From Ureaplasma sp. Hg2 (GTDB lineage: Bacteria > Bacillota_I > Bacilli_A > Mycoplasmatales > Mycoplasmoidaceae), in contig JAACJW010000006.1 of NCBI GenBank assembly GCA_021378525.1, forward strand, positions 1-39,994: a stretch of 39,994 nt of DNA, written 5' to 3'. Both the position numbers and the translations under genes were made by a program. Under the pieces are notes generated by a model. The model worked only from the letters and a program-made list of their open reading frames with translations, did no database searches and had not been told where the DNA came from. Each line of letters begins with the position of its first letter. Positions within the stretch are counted from its first letter, which is position 1. Below are positions 1,379 through 15,182 of the stretch, piece after piece.

Positions 1379-4300
1379 CTAAGATTTTTTAGTTTTCTTT
1401 TGTTGTTTCTTGAATTGCTTGTAAGTTTGCGGGCCACTTCCCTTTGCATTAACTTTGGCCCTTGGCTTACCTTGATGCATTTGAGGTTTTTTAGTTTTCT
1501 TTTGTTGGTTCTTAAATTGATTGTAAGTTTGTTGTTTAGCTTTTGAATTAAATTTAGCATTAGGTTTTTTATTCGTACTAATTTTAGATTTACCTTTAGC
1601 TTTAATTTTTGTTTTCTTTTTCGAATTAACTCTAGGCTTATCTTCGTCTCTCGAATTAAATTTAGTTTTACTATTGATTTTGTTAGTAGAAGCAGAATTT
1701 GATCATTTAGATCCATTAACTACTTCTTCAGAATTCACATCATCAATTTTATTATGACGTCTAGATTTAACAGATTTTGATGTTTTTTGGAATCCTCCAA
1801 TTAAAGTATCTAATTCTGTGTTGCCATTTAATTTAGATATTTTAGTTAATGATACATCTCTATCATAGTAATATTTTCGGTCACCTTTTGAAAACTTCTT
1901 TTGTTGCAAGCCCATTTTCTTATCGTTCATTATTAAGAAATTGTTTTTATTACTTTGTAATTGAATTCTTTTTTTACGTCGTTTAATTTGTGCTTTAACA
2001 GCTCGTTCTTCACGTGTTTTATTTAAATAATAGAAGATGAATGCAGCTACTAAAATAACTAAAGATGATATTATTAAACCGATAATTAAAGCTAAATCTT
2101 CTGGTTTAATTCCCGATTCAATGGGAAAACCAAAACTAGTTAAATCATAAGAATAAGTTGATGTGGTTGTATCACCGCTTGTTAAATAGTATGTTCCTTC
2201 AACTGTTAAACCACCTTCGCTATTATTGTATTCAAAGTGAATGTCGTCTATTACTAGTGAATGATTTGGATCGTTAACTTGCAAATAAGTGGAGTAATTA
2301 GATGAATTTACAACCGATGGTAAAACAGCTTGAGCCTTTGAAGTTATAACTGTAAATGTTGGTTTAATAGAAGTGCAAGCAAAACCATTCAATGTATGTG
2401 TATAGTTGCCTATTGTTCTAGCGCCGGTTTTTGGTTTGTTTTTATAATAAGTTCCTGAAATCGTTAACTCTCCCTTTTCATTATTTGAACTGAAATGAAT
2501 ATCATTCGGGATTAAAGTTTTACTTGGATCAATTACGTTTATGTATTTAGTATAATTACTTATACCTACTTTTGAAGGTAATGTTTTCGAAGCGGTTGAT
2601 TTTATAATGGTAAATTTTGGTGGCACTATTTTTATAGCAAAACCTGATAAGTCATACGAATAAGAACCTATTGATGTTTGAACATGATTTGTTGACGTTC
2701 AATAATTACCTGAAACTTTTAAAGTGCCATAAGCATCTTGTTGATTTGAGAATGTAATATCTTTTGTAATAAGGGTTTTATCTGGATCAACAACATCTAA
2801 ATAAGTTGAATAGTTTGTGGTATTAACACCAGATGGAAACACACTCGATGAGTTAGCATTTGTTTTAAAAACGGGCTTAGTTACATTTGAGTTAGCAAAA
2901 CCTGATAAGTCATACGAATAAGAACCCATTGATGTTGAAACATGATTTGTTGATGTTCAATATGATCCTGATATTGTTAACGTACCCTTTTTATCATTTT
3001 GATTAGAAATCTTAATATCCTTTGTAATTAATGTTGATGTATTAAATACATCCATATAATTAACATAATTAGTATTGGTTATTTTTGATGGTAATATTTC
3101 TTTTGATTTTGTATTTGGTGTGAAAATTGGTTTCTTTACATCTGTGTTAGCAAAACCTGATAAGTCATACGAATAAGAACCTATTGATGTTGAAACGTGA
3201 TTTGTTGATGTTCAATATGATCCCGATATTGTTAACGTACCGTTGGAATCGTTTTGATTAGAAAATTTAATATCCTTAGGGATTAATGTCTTATCTATAT
3301 CTATAACATTTAAATAAGGAGTGTAATTACCATTAGTTACTTTTGATGGTAAGATTTCAGGAGAACTACTATTTGGTCTGAATATAGGCGCTTTTACACT
3401 TGTGTTAGCAAAACCTGATAAATTATATAAATAAGTACCTGTGGAGGCTTTTGAGGTATGAATAGTTGATGATCAATATGATCCCGATACCGTTAATGTA
3501 CCATCTGTATCATTTTGATTAGAAAATTTAATATCATTTATAATTAACGTTTTTGGGTTGGTTACATCCATATAATTAACATAATTAGTTTTAGTTACTT
3601 TTGATGGTAATATTTCATGTGATCTACCATTTGAGCTAAACACAGGAGAAGTTACATTTGTGTTAGCAAACCCTGATAAGTCATACGAATAAGAACCTAT
3701 TGATGTTTGAACATGATTTGATGATGTTCAATACTTTCCTGAAATAGTCAAAGTACCATTCTTATCGTTTTGATTAGAAATTTTGACATCGCTTGTGATT
3801 AATGTATTATCTGAATCTTTAACTTTTAAATAATTAGTGTAATTAGTATTTGATATAGATGAAGGTAATATTTCTTTGGCATTAGTTCTTAATGTGAAAG
3901 TTGGTGCTGTTACGTTAGTATTAGCAAAACCCGATAAGTCATACGAATAAGAACCTATTGATGTTGAAACATGATTTGTTGATGTTCAATATGATCCTGA
4001 TATTGTTAACGTACCCTTTTTATCGTTAGTATTAGTAAATTTAATATCGTTTACAATTAACGTCCCATTTGGGTCGTTGGCTTTTATATATGTAGTATAG
4101 TTAGTGGTGTCTATTTTTGAAGGGACGATGTCTTGTGATTTACTAGTTGGTTTGAATGTTGGTGCTACTACATTTGTATTAGCAAAACCTGTTAGGTTGT
4201 ATGAATATTTTAATTTTGATGTTTGAGTTGTGGTTGATCAATAGTCACCAGAAACTGTTAAAGTACCTTTCTTATCATTCTCATTAGTAAATTTAATATC

Positions 4301-6898
4301 GTTCGTAATTAATGCATTATTAGAATCTGTGACTTTTATATAAGTTGTATAATTACTATTATTTATAGATGAGGGTAATACCTCTCCAACTATTGTTTTA
4401 TCTGTAAAAACTGGAGCATTAGTAGTATTCGCAAATCCCGACAATGGATAACTAAAAGAGCCGATGTTGGTGGTTGATGTTTTATCATTAGTTGTATGAT
4501 ATTTACCAGAAACTGTTAAAGTACCCTTTTTATCATTCTGATTAGTAAATTTAATGTCTTTTGGGATTAATACATTACTAGGATCATTAATTGTTAAATA
4601 AGGTGTGTAATTTAAACTATTTATTGCTGAAGGTAAAATTTGTGGTGAATTGTTATTGATTGTGATTGTTGGTTTTGTTGTATTACTATAAATAAATCCT
4701 TTAATAAAATATGAATAGAAATCAAATGGTGTTCCGGCCGTATGACTTGTCGTTGTATAGAATTTGATTCTAAAATCTAATTCCCCTGCTGAATTATGGG
4801 GAGTAATACTTTCAACATCGACAATGTCTGATTGATCACTTATATTTAAGTAAGTTTTATAATTGCTCTTGGAAACGACTGAAGGTAATACTTTTGTCCC
4901 AGCAGGACTAATTGTTATAGTTGGTTGAGATTCATTTGTGGCGAAACCTGATAATGAAACTTGGACTGAAAGAATCTTACTTGAACTTCATGACGTAGAA
5001 CGATAAAATACTTTAAAAATTGAATTAGAATAAGTAATATTTGTAAGTTGATCTTTTGCTATTCCAGTGATTGTTACATAATCACTAACATTGGTTTTAG
5101 TGTCTATGGGATTATTAGCTATTATTTTTTTGTCGAAAGCACTTTCGGTAATCGTACTAATATTCGTTTGATTAGGGTTTAGTGTTGGTGCTGGGTTTAT
5201 AGTTGCAAAACCTGTTATGGTTGTTTGGGTTGAAATTGGTGTACTTGTCGTTGAACTATTTGGATGAAAATAAAGTGTAAAAATATTAGTATTAGTATCA
5301 AAAGTAATATTTGTAATTAAATTTGGAGCTATTCCACCAATTTTCACATAATTCTTAATATTGCTAATAGTGGTGGTTGGATTATTAGGCGTAATTAATT
5401 TATTAAAATCAGCATTTGTAATTTTTTGAATATTAGATTGATTAATAGCGAATGTTGGTTTAAAGGAACTCTTTTCAAAACCTTTATATCACCCATATAA
5501 TGAACTGGTTGGGGCATTAGCACCTTTATATGTGGTTGAATAATAAACAACATTGATATCTAATTCACCACCCGCATTTCATGGGTTGAAACTAAATTTA
5601 CTTGGAATTAATACACCATCTGGATCATAAACATAAAAATAAGATCTAAAATTTGAAGCGTTAACATTGGCAGGCAATTCATGTGGTGCAGTCCCTGGAT
5701 TTGTGCTTAAATGAGGTCCTTTACTATTCCTAGCAAATCCCCCTATAACATAAGAATACGGATTTTGTTTACCTGTTTTTGAATGGTCTGATGTTTGATA
5801 ATAATTACCACTAATAGTAAGTTGTCCTGCCTTATCATTACTACTAAATTTAATGTCATTAATTATCAATGCATTATCTGGATCAATCGTTCTTAAATAA
5901 GTTGTGTAGTTAGTATTATCAACTTTTGATGGTACTTTTTCTTGTGCATGCTTTGTAATTGAAAATTTTGGGGCGGTGTTTCCATCATAAAATCCTTGTA
6001 AATTATAAGTTTTGGTTTCTGTTCTTGATCCTGACTTTTGAATATTAGTTGAATAATATTTGATTTTAAAATCAAGTTCTCCTGTTGTATCATGCGGAGT
6101 TATACTTACAACACTACTAATTTGATGAGATGGGGTTATATCTAAGTAGGTGCTATAATTAGATGCTGTCACAATTGAAGCGCGCACTTTATTACCGCTA
6201 CTATTAACAATGATTGTTGGTGGTGGAACAGTTGTTAAGAAACCTGATATAGTTTGATTGAAAGTGCCTTTATGAGTTTTCTTTTGATCTGAATAATAAC
6301 GACCTGATACTGTTACAGTTCCTTTGCTAACATCAGATGAAATATTGGTAAGATTGATAAACACACTATCGGGGTCTGTTTTAGTTAAGTAAGTTGAATA
6401 ATTAGTAATACTAACTTTTGAGGCAAAATTATTTCTACCAGCATTAGTAATTGTGAATGTGGGTTTAGTAGAATTCCCAACACCTAATTGAAAAGTGTGG
6501 GTAGTGTGTGCTGTTGTTCCGTTCGGTAGATAACTTGAAAAATCAATCTTCGCTTGATTTGATCCTTTATTAATTAAAAGCGTTTTACTATGGATATTAG
6601 TCGATGAGATATTTACTACATCACGATATTCCACATATTTAGTACTTCACGATTGTCCTACTTGGGGACAAGTAGATGAGTTATAATCATGGGTGATAGC
6701 AGCCGTATGAACTACAATGGTATAGGAAATACCAGACCCAACGTCAGTATTAGAAATTCAATCCCCATTAGCAGTAAGATTAGATGTACTTGATTCCGGG
6801 TCAATTTGGGTCTTATTATCTTGAATTAATAGTGGCACAAGCACAATTGGTGTGAGCAACAATGACAAGCCGAGGCCAAAAAAATGTATTTTTTTCAT
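1379..6898 (-). CDS. Giant repeat surface protein with C-terminal membrane anchor and basic tail
   Basis: The frame is continuous for 1839 residues when UGA is Trp; each apparent break is a TGA. Residues 1-~27 are a signal sequence without a lipobox Cys. About 17 repeats of ~86 residues follow. The consensus is LPS-x-(V/I)-x-x-x-NY-x-x-Y-(L/I), D-P-x-x-x-L-I-x-x-D-I-x-F, N-D-x-x-GTL-(T/K)-(V/I)-SG-x-YW, ending Y-x-Y-x-L-SGFA. This looks like the lipoprotein-17 (Pfam PF04200) domain of mycoplasma surface proteins. Repeats 5 and 6 are shorter and divergent. One transmembrane helix lies near 1602-1625, followed by ~214 very basic residues that should be cytoplasmic. The ATG has AAAGGGTG just upstream. 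It stands alone between two terminators. A role in adhesion or antigenic size variation is inference. Confidence 0.88.
2630..4440 (-). repeat. Near-identical ~258-bp tandem repeats in the giant surface gene
   Basis: A segment encoding the Y-S-Y-D-L-SGFA end of the domain recurs with very few changes near 2638, 2896, 3149, 3668 and 3927, with a more divergent copy near 3407. The period is about 258 bases (86 codons). Copies outside this block share the protein pattern but much less DNA identity, so this block is the recently expanded or homogenised part of the gene. Confidence 0.8.
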
Positions 6899-6969
6899 AG
6901 TAAACACCCTTTATTATATTTTAATCTTATTAAAGTAATAAACCCTTAAAATGCTTGATTTTGGGTAAC

Positions 6970-7001: not shown

Positions 7002-7411
7002 TTACTTGGTTGATAAAGCTTTCATTTTTTGCAATTGGCGGTCTAATGCCGCTTCCAATTGACGATATTTATTAGAACTCTTATCAGAAATAGTTTTAAG
7101 TTGATCCTGAAGTTTCTTAATATCGTTGTTAATATAATCTTCACGTAGTTTTTCTTTGTATTCAAAGTAGTCTGTAAAGATTTTAACACTACCACGTTCA
7201 ACATATAGTAATCCGCCAGTGATAATCGCTTCTTCACGTTTATCACCTTTCTTATTTCTAATGTAGCTCGTACAGTTTTGGAGAATCCCAATCATGGGAG
7301 CAATGTTCCCACCGATTGTGATTCGACCATCGACTGTTGCAGTTTCGATGTTAGTTACTTCTTCATCAAATTTAGTTCCAGTTGGTGTGATGATTTTTAA
7401 TCTTGTGGACA

Positions 7412-7412
<1 letters not shown>
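7002..7412 (-). CDS. atpC: ATP synthase subunit epsilon
   Basis: This is the 136-residue epsilon subunit of the F1 central stalk, which couples rotation to catalysis and can inhibit ATP hydrolysis. The N-terminal beta sandwich is recognisable (ITPTG at the start, then a G-R-I-T-I-G-x-x-x-A-P stretch near residues 29-40 and GGLLYVE near 67-73). It is followed by a Lys/Gln-rich helical C-terminal hairpin. It is the last gene of the operon; its ATG overlaps the atpD stop by one base (TAATG), implying coupled translation, and a strong terminator follows. Confidence 0.95.
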
Positions 7413-8812
<1,400 letters not shown>

Positions 8813-8822
8813 TTACTTTGAT

Positions 8823-9674
8823 TTAATTTGCGCCACTACCGGCAATAATTTCGGTAATTTCGTTTGTAATATTACTTTGACGAACACGATTGTATTGTAA
8901 TTTATATTTATCAATTAATTCGTTTGCGTTCTTTGTCGCAGTATCCATCGCGTTTCTACGTGATGCGTTTTCACTTACTTTTGATTCAATGTATGAACCA
9001 TAAATCATTGTTGCCATATAACTTGGTAACAAAGATTCAACAACTTCATCAACTCCTGGTTCAAAATCAAATTGTAATGCGTTAACAGTTAAGTTTTGAT
9101 TTTCTAGGATTGATTTATCAAAAGGGATAACATCCATTTTGGTTGCGTTGAAGGTTAATGCGTTAACAAATTTTGTGTATAACATTTTGATTTCATTAAC
9201 TTCTCCACTTTTATATAATCTTAAGATATCGGCTCCTAAACGAGCACATACATCATAATCGAATTCATTATCGTTGAAGTTATAAGTATTGATAATTTGA
9301 TCACCCATTTTTTTGGTTTTTCAAAAATCAACACCACGACGACCGATAACGATTATTTTGTCTTGAGGTCTTACCATTGAATAAGCTAGTTTGCTAACGT
9401 TAGCATTATATGATCCACATAAACCCATAGTTGAGTTAATGACAATATATAATCGCGAATCCTTAGCATTTTTAACTTTCAAAAATTCAACATCTCCACA
9501 AATTGATAATAGATATCCAACAACATTGTAATATTCTTGATAGTAATCTTGAATATCCAAATATAATTTTTTTTGTTTTCTTAATTTAGACGATGCTACT
9601 AAATGCATTGCCTTTGTAATTTTAGCGGTAGTTTGAACAGATGCTATTTTTCTCTTGATTGCTTCTAAAGACAT
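8823..9674 (-). CDS. atpG: ATP synthase subunit gamma
   Basis: This 283-residue protein is the rotor shaft of F1. The N-terminal helix with R-K-I-A-S-V-Q-T-T-x-K-I-T-K-A-M is diagnostic, as is the C-terminal helix with S-R-R-N-A-M-D-x-A-T-x-N-A. A UGA at 9318-9320 encodes Trp within the Rossmann-like part. It starts only two bases after the stop of the unknown membrane-protein gene at 9677-10258. AAGGAACGGG upstream, inside that gene, serves as ribosome site, so the two genes are tightly linked. Confidence 0.96.
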
Positions 9675-9676
9675 TT

Positions 9677-10258
9677 TTAAGCACCCGTTCCTTCCATAAT
9701 AGGTTGAGCAATTGCTCCACCTAATTTTTTAGCTTTTTTAGCCGCTAGTTTTTCAGCCTTTTTTTGTTCCTTAAGTAATTTTCTTTCCAATTTAACTGCC
9801 GGTTCTGGTCTTGGTCTATATTTCAATAATAAACCAACTATTAATCATAATATTAGTGGAACTAACATTAATCATCCGAAAGCGTTACCTCACATGTAAC
9901 TTGAATAAGTTGAACTAACATTAGGCAATACTTCAGCTATCACTTTGCCAGTGGTAGGGTCAATCGGCGGGTTTAATAAATATCTATAATGAGCAAGCAT
10001 GTAAGCTTGACCATTATTAACTTTAACCATTTCTCAAACATTCGGTTGAATATTTTTATTGATATTTTGTCAAATTTCGTTACTTTTATTATCCTTAATT
10101 GTATGAGTTAACCAGGCGAAGTCGCTTGCATATTGATTTGATATCCACGCTAAACCAATTATTGCGTATATTAGCATTGCTAAACAAATAATTGAATAAA
10201 CTACTAATATTGATAATTGAATTTTGCGTTTTTTACTTAAGTTTTTTACTTTTAACAT
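9677..10258 (-). CDS. Unknown two-helix membrane protein inserted in the atp operon
   Basis: This 193-residue gene lies between atpA and atpG, where canonical atp operons have nothing. Layout: basic N-terminus (K-K-R-K), transmembrane helix at ~13-38, a Trp/Tyr/Asn-rich extracellular segment at 40-120, a second transmembrane helix at ~122-146, then a Lys/Ala/Glu-rich cytoplasmic tail at 147-193. UGA codes for Trp at several positions. No strong ribosome site precedes the ATG, which lies 17 bases after the atpA stop, so translation may depend on coupling. The tail resembles the C-terminal tail of AtpB, also at DNA level. I do not recognise the family. Position suggests an accessory or structural subunit of the ATP synthase; that is inference. 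Confidence 0.85.
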
Positions 10259-10275: not shown

Positions 10276-12351
10276 TTATAAATAAGTTGGTCCTTTAATA
10301 GCTGTTAGGTTGTAGTCAGCTAATGTTTTAGGCGAATCAAATTTCTTTGCTTCGTCAATTAAGAAAACGTGAGCTGTTTTAGAACCACTAAATTTTTCAG
10401 TAAATTTATCTTTTGATAAATTTGTTTCATCTTTAACTTTTTTATATACAGTTGCAATCGGTCCAGAAACTAATTCTTTAATACTTGCTTCACCAATAAT
10501 GACTTTGTCTTTCTTGTTGAAGAAAATAATTTTCTTAACTTCCTTATCACTAAAACCTTTAACAATTAAAGCTTTTAAAGATTTATCAAATACGCTCATA
10601 ATTTCGGTTGCGTTAAAGCTAATAATAGCTGTTTTAACATTTGCTGCTTGAGACACTTCAGGTGTTTTTGATACATCTGTTGTTTCTTGCTTTGTTTCAA
10701 CTTCGGGTTTAGTTGCTTTAGGGGCAACTGGAGCTTCAGTTTTTTTTGTTTCAACTCCACCTTGAATTGCTTCAAGCGCTTTACTTTCATCATTTGTAAC
10801 ATCTAATCCTTCTAGTGAAAAATCAGTTGTGTATGCGTAGTTTGGTACACCTTTAAGAAATTGACGAATCATGCCTTTAATTTCAGCTTTGAAAGCTAAT
10901 ACTAATACATCGCTAAATGCTTTGCTTTTTTCTAATGTCGATCTTAATTTAGTGCCTTTAAAATGTTTTACTATATCAGATTTAAATCGCGAAATATCTT
11001 CAACTGGAATATAGCTAATCATGTGATGTTTAATAGTAAACAAAATAATCGCTTCATCTGTTTGTTGATACGGCTTGTTCTGAGGTTGTTTGATAATTTC
11101 CATTACCCGTTTCCCATGATCAAGAATTTTCTTAGTAGCAGAATCTAAATCTGAACCAAATTGACTAAAAGCATCTAATTCACGATAACTTGCCAATTCG
11201 ATTCTAAGACTAGAACCAACTTGTTTAACTGATTTAATTTGGGCATCCCCACCAACTCGTGATACTGATAACCCTGCATCAACAGCGGGTCTTTGACCTG
11301 CGTTGAATAATGGTGTCATCATAAATAATTGACCATCAGTAATCGAAATAACATTGGTTGGAATATATGCTGAGATATCACCCGCTTGAGTTTCGATAAT
11401 TGGAAGGGCTGTAATTGAGCCTCCCCCATTATCTTTGTTCAAACGACAAGCACGTTCAAGTAAACGACTATGTAAATAAAATACATCCCCAGGATAAGCT
11501 TCTCTCCCTGGCGGTCGTCTAAGCAATAACGATAATGTTCGATAAGCAACTGCATGCTTACTTAAATCATCGTAAATGATTAGTACGTCTTCTCCTTGCG
11601 ACATTCAGTATTCAGCCATTGTAACTCCAGCGAATGGAGCAATATATTTAAGGGCTGGTAAGTCAGCAGCTGTAGCTGATACAATAGTTGTATAAGCCAT
11701 AGCTCCTAAGTTTTCTAGATTACGTACAATACTTGCAACTGTTGAATTTTTTTGACCAATTGCAACATATACACAACGTACGTTTTTTCCTTTTTGATTA
11801 ATAATAGCATCTATCGCAACTGTTGTTTTACCAGTTTGACGGTCACCAATGATTAACTCACGTTGACCCTTTCCAATTGGGAACATTGAATCTATTACTA
11901 GAATCCCTGTTTCCAACGGTTGGTTTACTGACTTTCTAGTCATAACTCCAGGTGCAACTTTTTCGATTGGTAAAGCTTTATCAGTTTTGATTTTACCTTT
12001 ACCATCAATCGGTTGACCGATCGCATTAACGACACGGCCTGAAAGCGCGTTCCCCACAGGAACTTGCATAATTCGTTTTGAACGAACAACTCTATCGCCT
12101 TCTTGAATTTCTTCGAATTCTCCAAGCATAACCACACCAACTGAATCTTCTTCAAGATTCAATGCCATACCTTCTGTCCCATTTTCAAAAATAAGGATTT
12201 CATTAAGCATCGCATTGTCTAACCCACTTACTTTGGCAATTCCATCACCGATGGTGATAACTTTACCTTCTTCAGCAGTTAATATCTTGTCAGAATATTT
12301 TTTGATTTGATTTTGGATAACGGTTGAAAATTCGTCTAATTTAATAGCCAT
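10276..12351 (-). CDS. atpA: ATP synthase subunit alpha with ~170-residue C-terminal extension
   Basis: Residues 1-~515 are a standard F1 alpha subunit: P-loop GDRQTGKT at 169-176, the [11 protein letters not shown] stretch after the UGA-encoded Trp at codon 249, PGREAYPGD, and the SVSRVGG arginine-finger motif ending at Arg365. The gene does not stop there. A Lys/Thr/Pro/Glu-rich linker (~519-571) leads to a mixed alpha/beta-looking domain of ~120 residues (572-691) that I do not recognise. Total length is 691 residues against ~500-550 for the family. The start is the ATG directly after atpH, with an AGGAAG ribosome site. The extension is in frame and free of low-quality signs, so it looks genuine. 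Confidence 0.96.
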
Positions 12352-12354
12352 AAT

Positions 12355-12894
12355 TTATCTTCCTTTCTCACTAATTTTTCTAAGATTTTTTAATCTTCCT
12401 TGTAATGTTGAATCAACAGTCTTTGATGCAAAACTAAGTTTTACGCCACCGATAACGGTGGGATCAATGATGTTTCGATATTCAACTTTACTACTATATT
12501 TTTTTTCTATTGCTTTAACAATTTTTTTTGTTTCAGCATCAGTCAATGGATATGCTGTTCTAATTTCTAGAAACATAACCTTTAAATAATCATTTGTCTC
12601 ATGAACTAATATTTTCATTATTTGTTCTATATATTTCATAACATTTTTGTCAATTAATAAATAAAAGAAATTAATTAAATATATTGGTGCGCCTTTAAAT
12701 ATAGCGTTTACCACTTTTTTACGTTCATCCTTACTAATGTTTGGACACATTAGAATTTCAACTATTTTTTTATTTGCTTTGAAAGCATATAAGATATGTT
12801 TGAACCAAACAAAGTATTCTTCTACTTTGTTTTGTTCTTTTGCAATGTTAAGCATTGCAAGTGCAAAATTTTCTGCAATATCTGATCTAGTCAT
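12355..12894 (-). CDS. atpH: ATP synthase subunit delta
   Basis: The 179-residue delta subunit joins F1 to the peripheral stalk. The N-terminal helical bundle (A-x-x-F-A-x-A-L-like start) and the C-terminal I-D-P-x-V-I-G-G-V signature near residues 146-155 support the call, as does its place between atpF and atpA. Its start overlaps the end of atpF by eight bases, and the atpA ATG follows the stop by three bases. Confidence 0.93.
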   Translation of the reverse strand: MTRSDIAENFALAMLNIAKEQNKVEEYFVWFKHILYAFKANKKIVEILMCPNISKDERKKVVNAIFKGAPIYLINFFYLLIDKNVMKYIEQIMKILVHETNDYLKVMFLEIRTAYPLTDAETKKIVKAIEKKYSSKVEYRNIIDPTVIGGVKLSFASKTVDSTLQGRLKNLRKISEKGR

Positions 12895-13513
12895 GTTGAG
12901 CTAAATTCTTATCGATATTTTTGATAAAATCGTCAACAAGTCTTTGGTTATCTTTTTTGTTGATTTCTTTTTTAATCAATGCTTCTGCTGCAGAAAAAGC
13001 TACATTAATAATTTCTTTTTGCATATCTTGACGAAGTTTTTCCTCTTGTTTAAGAGCTTCATCCTTTGCTTCGTTTTGAATTCGTCGCGCATTTGCTTTT
13101 GCTTCAACTTCTAAACGTTCGCGAATTTTATATCCTTCATCGTTAGCTGCATTTACAATGTGAATTGCTTGTGCTTGTGCTCTAATTTGTTCTTCTTTCG
13201 ATTTTTCAAAGTTAGAGAATGCTTCTTCTTTTGCTTTTTTAGTTTGTTCAACTTCTCTCATTAGATGGTCTTTTCTTTTGTCAGTTCAACGGTTGGCTGG
13301 TTTTCACACTAGTCAAATAATTAAACTTAAAAGAATAATCATCGCAATTATTTGGGCAATAAATACTCAAACGTTGGGAAAGATTTGGTTGATAATTTCA
13401 TTAGATGTTACTCCGTCAATTTCAGCCGAACAACTTGTTAAAGGCAAAAGTAAAGTCATTGATGAACCTAGGCCTAAGGCCGCAATTAATCATCTTTTTT
13501 TAGTTTGCTTCAC
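12887..13513 (-). CDS. atpF: ATP synthase subunit b, lipoprotein form
   Basis: The 208-residue peripheral-stalk subunit starts with GTG at 13513, seven bases after a strong GGAGG. Residues 1-28 form a lipoprotein signal ending in LTSC, so Cys28 should be lipidated. A transmembrane helix follows at ~45-68, then W-K-P-A-N-R-W and a long charged coiled coil (E-x-x-K-x-A-R-R-x-x-x-E-A type). Four UGA codons encode Trp in the N-terminal quarter. The b subunit of M. pneumoniae has been described as a lipoprotein, so this is a known mycoplasma trait. Confidence 0.94.
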
Positions 13514-13547
13514 GTGATTACCTCCTTCGTTATTTCTTGATATTTTA

Positions 13548-13820
13548 TTAATTCATACCTGGTGCAACGAAGATAAGTAAAATCGCAATAATCAATGCGT
13601 AGATTGCAGATGACTCAGCCATCGCAGCTCCTACGATCATTGTTTTAGTAATTTTTCCTTCTACTTCAGGGTTACGTGCGATTGCCATTGCTGCGGCACC
13701 ACCTGCATAACCTTGACCAGCACCTACTCCAGATGCTGCGACCATAGCACAACCTGCACCGATATAAGCGCCTGCAACTTGAATGTTGCCAGTTATATCT
13801 GCTATTAATGATAAATCCAT
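13548..13820 (-). CDS. atpE: ATP synthase subunit c
   Basis: The 90-residue proteolipid forms the rotor ring in the membrane. Two hydrophobic helices flank the polar loop A-R-N-P-E at 48-52. The ion-carrying carboxylate is Glu69 in AESSAIY, and helix 1 carries GAGQGYAGG. Gln36, Glu69, Ser70 and Tyr74 together match the residue set known from Na+-binding c rings. It follows atpB with a good AAGGAG site. Confidence 0.96.
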   Translation of the reverse strand: MDLSLIADITGNIQVAGAYIGAGCAMVAASGVGAGQGYAGGAAAMAIARNPEVEGKITKTMIVGAAMAESSAIYALIIAILLIFVAPGMN

Positions 13821-13831
13821 TATGTTTCTCC

Positions 13832-14665
13832 TTAATTATTAGCTAAATGAACATTGTTATTTAGCTTTTTTTCTTTTTTTAATTCTAGTTTAGCTAATTT
13901 TTTTTCCTTAGCTAATTTTCTTTCTTCTTCATACTCAAGACCATGTTGATATTCTAATCCTCAATAACTTACAGTTAATAACGTAAATACGAAGGCTTGA
14001 ATCAAGCCAGCGAATAACGAAAAGTAAATCATAAGTGCTGGTAACAAGAATGTTCCAGCGACGATAATTACACCAATTGCAGGGAACATGTTAGAAACAC
14101 TTCCTAGCGCCCAGAAGATTACCGCGAAGATAATCGATCCAGACATGACGTTACCTCATAGCCGGAATGTAATTGAAAGTAGTGGTGTAAATTTACCAAT
14201 AATTTCTAATGGGTTAATCATTACAGGAATCTTGTGATCCATAATTGTTACCCGGATAAGAAATTGATTTACAAAACTTAGTTTTTGATATTTAATCGCC
14301 ACTACAAAAGTTCCAATAAACATAATCAAACCTAGAGTCATCGGAACTGTCGACGCAGTAGCTGGTTCTTTAAAACCAAAAACCATTGCGATATTTCCAA
14401 GACATAGGTAGGAAAGTAGGAAGATGAAATATGGTGTTAATTTAACAAATTTGACACCTAGTGATTCAACAACTAATGATCGACATGCTGCTATAAAAGC
14501 GTCCATAATTAATGTGAAACGTTTTGGCGTATCATCTGGTTTTAACTTTCGCACTTGAAGAAAGTAAATCAAACAAAAAGCTCCTATTACAATTGTTAAA
14601 ATTATAATCGAGGTAATTTGCGGAATTGCACCGTATTCAAGTGTTAAAGGATTGTATGCATCCAT
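13832..14665 (-). CDS. atpB: ATP synthase subunit a with basic C-terminal tail
   Basis: The 277-residue membrane stator forms the ion channel against the c ring. Several transmembrane helices are visible. The essential arginine is Arg168 in F-R-L-W-G-N, where W170 is encoded by UGA. After the last helix (~residue 235) the protein continues for ~40 residues with E-Y-E-E-E-R-K-L and many Lys, a cytoplasmic tail not found in standard a subunits. A similar tail occurs on the membrane protein at 9677-10258. The ATG follows GGAGGTGG by a short spacer. Confidence 0.95.
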
Positions 14666-14692: not shown

Positions 14693-15112
14693 CTAGTTTT
14701 TAGTATTTTTTTTGACTCAAACAATACTATATATAGATATATAGGTAATGCTTAATAGTAAAAAACCACATAACATGTAAATACTAAAAACGTTTGGATA
14801 ATAATAATTAACGGTAAAGCCGATTGCCATTGGAATAATATATATAATATTATTCAAGGTATTTACAAATGATAAAATCACTGTGGCTAAAACCCGTTTT
14901 GTTCTTTTTTTAGCTAACTTTTTAATGTACCCTGGTATCGAGCAATTTATAAATTTAGCTAAAACGACAAACGGTGCTGTTAAGATGGTTGCGTATAGAT
15001 ATTGTCATAATGAATTATCAACTCATCCCATTATCAAACATATCGTAATAATAAGTCCGCTAATGGCAAGATAAATTATGATTAAATCATTAAAAAAATT
15101 ATCACGTAACAA
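14693..15112 (-). CDS. AtpI-like four-helix membrane protein
   Basis: A 139-residue frame with three UGA-encoded Trp lies immediately upstream of atpB. It has four hydrophobic helices and short loops, with basic patches (K-K-L-A-K-K-R-T-K-R) on the inside. Position and layout match the AtpI-like protein that heads F1FO operons, thought to help assemble the c ring; sequence similarity alone is too weak to prove it. I see no ATG. The proposed start is TTG at 15112, five bases after GGGGTG and ~60 bases below the promoter at 15183-15210, which rules out longer starts. The start is the least certain part. Confidence 0.7.
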
Positions 15113-15182
15113 TCTTTCACCCCGCTTATTCAAGCCAAAGCAAGAAATTCATACTAAATGATAGGTGTTTGACTCAAAACAA

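Follow-up and report, generated by a model that had tools for sequence, protein, structure and literature searches.

The window, that is, the whole 39,994-nucleotide stretch of DNA analysed here (Ureaplasma sp. Hg2, contig JAACJW010000006.1), carries within its F1FO ATPase operon an additional gene, termed X, that encodes a two-helix membrane protein and sits between atpA and atpG. X is probably a hitherto undescribed additional component or helper of the ATP synthase of its clade, as it is present in every ATP-synthase-bearing clade genome examined and in no other mycoplasma operon that was read. The narrower reading, which makes X an accessory (supernumerary) membrane component, specific to this clade, of the Type 1 F1FO ATPase, is given an even chance on the basis of comparative sequence evidence. 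Few gene sets are as conserved as bacterial F1FO operons, which usually have eight subunit genes plus atpI; if this reading is correct, a ninth membrane gene kept by a minimal-genome clade would provide an example, rare among bacteria, of a supernumerary subunit.

Operon Organization and Architecture of X

The F1FO operon of the window is complete, lies on the minus strand, and reads under genetic code 4 in the order atpI-like, atpB, atpE, atpF, atpH, atpA, X, atpG, atpD, atpC. By ascending coordinate, its genes are as follows.

7002..7412, minus strand: atpC (epsilon), from position and matches in relatives
7412..8800, minus strand: atpD (beta), from the open reading frame and genome comparison
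8823..9674, minus strand: atpG (gamma), from family matches
9677..10258, minus strand: gene X, 193-residue two-helix membrane protein between atpA and atpG, from the open reading frame (code 4) and comparison with Hg1
10276..12351, minus strand: atpA (alpha), 691 residues with a C-terminal extension, from family matches
12355..12894, minus strand: atpH (delta), from comparison with relatives
12887..13588, minus strand: atpF (b), with lipobox LTSC, from family matches
13548..13820, minus strand: atpE (c), from a family match
13832..14665, minus strand: atpB (a), from a family match
14693..15133, minus strand: gene in the atpI position, with a weak MG406-family match (E 0.001, below cut-off)

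Subunit b is probably lipid-anchored on the outside, as in relatives of the window's b, because of its N-terminal lipobox LTSC. Immediately 3′ of atpC, at 1379–6907 on the minus strand, lies an 1842-residue repetitive surface protein with 14 Lipoprotein_17 stretches.

The X reading frame has an ATG start and 193 codons, five of which are TGA translated as Trp under code 4, and is set 17 nt 3′ of atpA and 2 nt 5′ of atpG, exactly as in the preliminary description, which had left out the strand. No terminator-like site was found on the minus strand between atpA and atpG. The protein can be divided into four regions.

10142..10222, minus strand: first hydrophobic helix (residues about 13–39), with a basic N-terminus ahead of it; from hydrophobicity, with 97% identity to Hg1 over residues 1–39
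9902..10141, minus strand: predicted outward-facing loop (residues about 40–119), fast-diverging; 42% amino acid identity and a DNA trough of 0.51–0.63 against Hg1
9818..9886, minus strand: second hydrophobic helix (residues about 125–147); from hydrophobicity, kept across genera
9680..9817, minus strand: Lys/Arg-rich predicted cytoplasmic tail; from the charge pattern

Hydrophobicity peaks at residues 17–35 and 127–145, charges of +6/−0 at the N-terminus and +14/−5 in the C-terminal tail, and an outer segment of roughly 80–90 residues containing 12 aromatics bear out the two helices, the external aromatic segment of about 80 residues and the basic tail first proposed for this protein. The predicted topology is N-in/C-in, with two helices able to sit beside FO. 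The C-terminal tail of AtpB (subunit a) is Lys/Glu-rich, KLAKEKKLAKLELKKEKK, and recalls the tail of X.

The genome of "Ureaplasma sp. Hg1" (a metagenome-assembled genome, JAACJV010000009.1) has X in the equivalent slot with 69% identity. Between the two, pN/pS is 0.05 for the N-terminus and first helix and 0.26 for the second helix and tail; these parts are under purifying selection. X is a real gene, given the same-place copy in Hg1 and the large deficit of nonsynonymous relative to synonymous changes in these regions.

X gave no match above noise in Pfam, NCBIfam, PHROGs, or the PDB. It matches neither the AtpI and MG406 family models of Pfam and NCBIfam nor ATP-synt_C and ATP-synt_B, and by sequence is thus not a paralogue of c or b. 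Structure predictions from two-row alignments were of low confidence (pLDDT 60 and 43, the latter for the alpha extension), and a fold search with the low-confidence X model returned no informative structural match.

Occurrence of X in Related Genomes

A two-helix open reading frame of 149–295 residues occupies the atpA–atpG slot in all 13 operons of the window's genus (g1), genus g11, and the sister genus g8. Genus g11 is identified as Ureaplasma, being the sole genus of the family with urease. Each of the 13 X proteins has two main hydrophobic regions, a basic N-terminus, a basic tail, and a positive-inside pattern, and across the clade the gene begins −17 to 20 nt after atpA and ends −1 to 7 nt before atpG. 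None of the 35 operons read outside the clade (22 from the same family, 13 from other families) contains X, the gap between atpA and atpG there being −5 to 22 nt; genera g4, g5, and g6 were covered by profile search alone and are not part of this gap reading. The 35 take in Malacoplasma and Mycoplasmoides, where the preliminary description had expected homologues; there are none there, and they occur instead in Ureaplasma and the sister genus. One genome of genus g10, which we take to be Malacoplasma penetrans, has no insert at the site.

A direct similarity search with X matches Hg1 only. A placing of homologues mostly away from atp genes, named at the outset as evidence against a link to the ATPase, was looked for and is not what is seen: every confident member of the X family occupies the atpA–atpG slot, and X is missing from genomes without atpD and atpG. 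No confident copy lies elsewhere in 95 family, 298 order, and 247 class genomes, although the profile is weakly sensitive to very divergent copies, for which absence outside the atp locus is therefore unproven. Weak profile matches in another family (G173, G165, and G052; E down to 3e-7) lie away from atp genes, look like FtsH N-termini, and were rejected.

The genomes in question are five of genus g11 (G112, G029, G114, G115, and G116) with no detectable atpD or atpG and no X found. They are 74–93% complete (G029, 93%), and incompleteness alone is unlikely to explain the absence of X from all five; they seem to have lost F1FO. All five have a match to arginine deiminase, an alternative source of ATP, that falls below the NCBIfam cut-off. 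Two of them carry urease. The window's genome likewise has an arginine deiminase match, with no urease found, and the four urease-positive, F1FO-bearing Ureaplasma genomes have no deiminase match. A tie between X and urease was considered and ruled out, X being present in g1 and g8 genomes in which no urease was found.

Common Descent of X

An IQ-TREE phylogeny of AtpA plus AtpG places the X-bearing genomes in one group (support 100) and joins g1 with Ureaplasma (support 97); G113, filed in g11, groups with g8. When the profile of the window's genus is aligned with that of the other two groups, helix 2 and the tail are matched with an hhalign probability of 92%, a score reached by none of 60 topology-preserving column shuffles, whereas against g8 plus G113 alone the match is weaker and 3 of 60 shuffles reach the score. 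A profile built without Ureaplasma recovers three of the four Ureaplasma X proteins, weakly, and one built without the window's genus does not recover X in the window's genome. Sequence homology of X across genera thus appears modest, with helix 2 and the tail as the alignable region. Within g8 itself identity is only about 20–35%, because the family evolves so fast. As cross-genus similarity is weak, orthology is argued mainly from position, architecture, and phylogeny, and sequence plays a supporting part.

With similarity between genera at the edge of detection, the X frames of the three genera could be membrane genes of separate origin that each entered one permissive site independently. 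We regard this as very improbable, as the distribution is monophyletic, slot and topology are identical, the helix-2/tail pattern is held in common with a profile score above all controls, and the 35 other operons have no insert at the site; moreover, identity falls just as low within g8, where descent is hardly in doubt.

Divergence of the Outer Loop

DNA identity between the window and Hg1 is mostly 0.8–1.0 over atpA, X, and atpG, and drops to 0.51–0.63 over 9886–10146, which corresponds to the outer loop; the 69% protein identity of X compares with 92–98% for the neighbouring genes. A second, independent pair (G017/G026) has a loop trough of 0.63–0.73 with flanks of about 0.9. The window–Hg1 dS is 2.7 in the loop, compared with 0.27 and 0.38 on either side, a difference that relaxed constraint alone would not explain. 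These values suggest a loop that is exposed and diversifying, or replaced, and they are better explained by recombinational replacement or by a history of local acceleration than by relaxed constraint alone. The window's genome (assembly about 79% complete) yielded no further copy of X, which argues against an internal donor.

A Possible Role for X in the ATPase

We infer both the physical association of X with the ATPase and its function from the comparisons above. The new FO-associated subunit of the preliminary description, co-expressed stoichiometrically, may be correct, but the rapid change of the outer loop allows for other roles. In the reading we prefer, a single gain of X in the common ancestor of Ureaplasma, the window's genus, and the sister genus was followed by its retention wherever the ATPase was kept. 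The two helices would form a membrane anchor adjoining the FO sector; on the cytoplasmic side, helix 2 and the basic tail would contact the complex or its lipids, and the loop would project from the outer face. Being translated directly after alpha and before gamma, the protein would arrive during assembly, and its most likely job would be the stabilisation or tuning of the membrane-bound complex. Against a subunit, X evolves far faster than the true subunits, its similarity across genera is weak, and its structural model is of low confidence; it is mainly the behaviour of the loop that keeps our confidence no higher.

That behaviour is what would be expected if X were a surface protein (an antigen, adhesin, or receptor) that took advantage of strong, constitutive expression from the atp operon while playing no part in the ATPase: the trough is sharp in both independent pairs, and a raised loop dS is typical of exposed regions that diversify or recombine. 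The best-conserved parts, however, are the helices and the cytoplasmic tail, which mere surface display would not need, and all members have one location; X is also absent together with the ATPase, although deletion of the whole operon would yield the same pattern. We consider a surface protein unlikely, and hold to the same low expectation an assembly factor, needed for building the enzyme and absent from its finished form. A small, fast-evolving membrane protein encoded in the operon and translated between two F1 subunits would suit such a factor, and retention with the operon fits it equally well. AtpI is a c-ring assembly factor in other bacteria, but a gene in the atpI position, with its weak MG406 match, is already present upstream, and X has no similarity to any known assembly-factor family. 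We favour an accessory membrane component over both.

Alpha Extension and Other F1 Features

The alpha extension mentioned in the preliminary description is present, with about 186 residues beyond residue 505, and is common to the AtpA of the window and of Ureaplasma. ASCH proteins form an RNA-binding-type superfamily, and the extension has a significant profile match to a solved member.

10279..10638, minus strand: ASCH-like domain at the alpha C-terminus (linker 10639–10836), from a profile of five extensions against ZmASCH 5GUS (E 2.1e-11)

The window's extension alone matches 5GUS, the Zymomonas mobilis ASCH protein, only marginally (E 0.013), and Foldseek with the low-confidence extension model gave uninformative output.

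The extension had been taken, together with X, as a sign of a remodelled ATP synthase. That proposal holds in part, in that Ureaplasma has the extension too, and fails in part, in that other clade members combine X with an alpha tail that differs or is nearly absent. For this reason X and the extension are separable, and alpha decorations come and go independently of X. A strict tie between X and the ASCH extension is likewise ruled out, as X is found with short or zinc-ribbon-like alpha tails; an apparent correlation between the lengths of X and of the alpha tail is confounded by phylogeny. As a whole, an F1FO of Ureaplasma and its sister genera with a new integral membrane subunit bearing a surface-exposed, diversifying loop, and in Ureaplasma and the window's genus also an ASCH alpha, would be a Type 1 synthase incorporating parts that no other described bacterium is known to have, a composite picture that we put forward tentatively, at somewhat less than even expectation.

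Further variation was observed in the F1 genes of the family. In part of g8 (L060, L061, and L062, from G033, G103, and G102) the AtpA tail ends in a Cys4 zinc-ribbon-like stretch, CSKCKDECFTSILLDSGNHICYRCW. Three Ureaplasma operons (L052, L054, and L055) have a second, truncated delta (about 92–102 residues, the C-terminal part) between atpH and atpA, and G113 (L056) has the short delta form only. In L057 (G008) and L064 (G010), a long stretch of additional open frame extends AtpD at its N-terminus, by about 140 and 320 residues, respectively.

Comparison with Known Systems

The mitochondrial supernumerary FO subunits e, f, g, and k, which are eukaryotic and often single-helix, are like X in being small, lineage-restricted, fast-evolving membrane additions to a conventional F1FO. 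They have no sequence match to X, whose gene lies inside a bacterial operon and whose association with the complex we infer. AtpI and MG406 are also small membrane proteins of atp operons; X, in contrast, is mid-operon and matches neither family, and the atpI position at 14693–15133 is filled by another gene. The hairpin of subunit c has a topology opposite to the N-in/C-in arrangement predicted for X.

Among mollicutes, GliD and GliE of the Mycoplasma mobile G1-ATPase (Type 2) are lineage-specific additions to an F1-type motor encoded in or near its cluster (PMC11864180). GliD is described as lacking a transmembrane segment and bridges alpha subunits of the Type 2 motor (PMC11864180), whereas X has two membrane helices and belongs to a true Type 1 F1FO operon. 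The X0 proteins of the Type 2 and Type 3 F1-like ATPase clusters resemble X as fast-evolving membrane proteins of mollicute ATPase clusters with conserved structural features (PMC3369863). Compared by description, they differ in size and setting: about 12 helices are given for Protein 1 and about 770 residues for Protein 5, and the clusters are without FO subunits (PMC3369863), whereas X has 193 residues and two helices and the window's operon has a, b, and c.

The atp operon of U. parvum is itself unusual. Koumandou and Kossida describe a long C-terminal extension (~250 residues) on one U. parvum alpha and a second delta gene in the locus (PMC4154653), and UU133/UU134 have been called "atypical delta" (PMC2751442); the alpha extension is the same feature as the window's. 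If the numbering of the two delta genes is followed along the operon, X would be UU131 in U. parvum. The accessible portions of these two papers mention neither an extra membrane gene nor the ASCH nature of the extension. A full-text search of openly accessible papers, a set without the original U. parvum genome paper, gave no description of X; in deposited genomes X is presumably annotated as a hypothetical protein. Ureaplasma reportedly makes 95% of its ATP through urea hydrolysis and chemiosmotic potential (PMC5015763), and so depends heavily on its ATP synthase; if a part peculiar to the clade exposes a loop at the surface, this long-ignored enzyme would become directly testable. Rotary ATPases with an added part have precedents in mitochondria and in the M. 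mobile G1-ATPase (PMC11864180), whereas a membrane gene added clade-wide to a true bacterial F1FO operon is, to the extent of our search, new.
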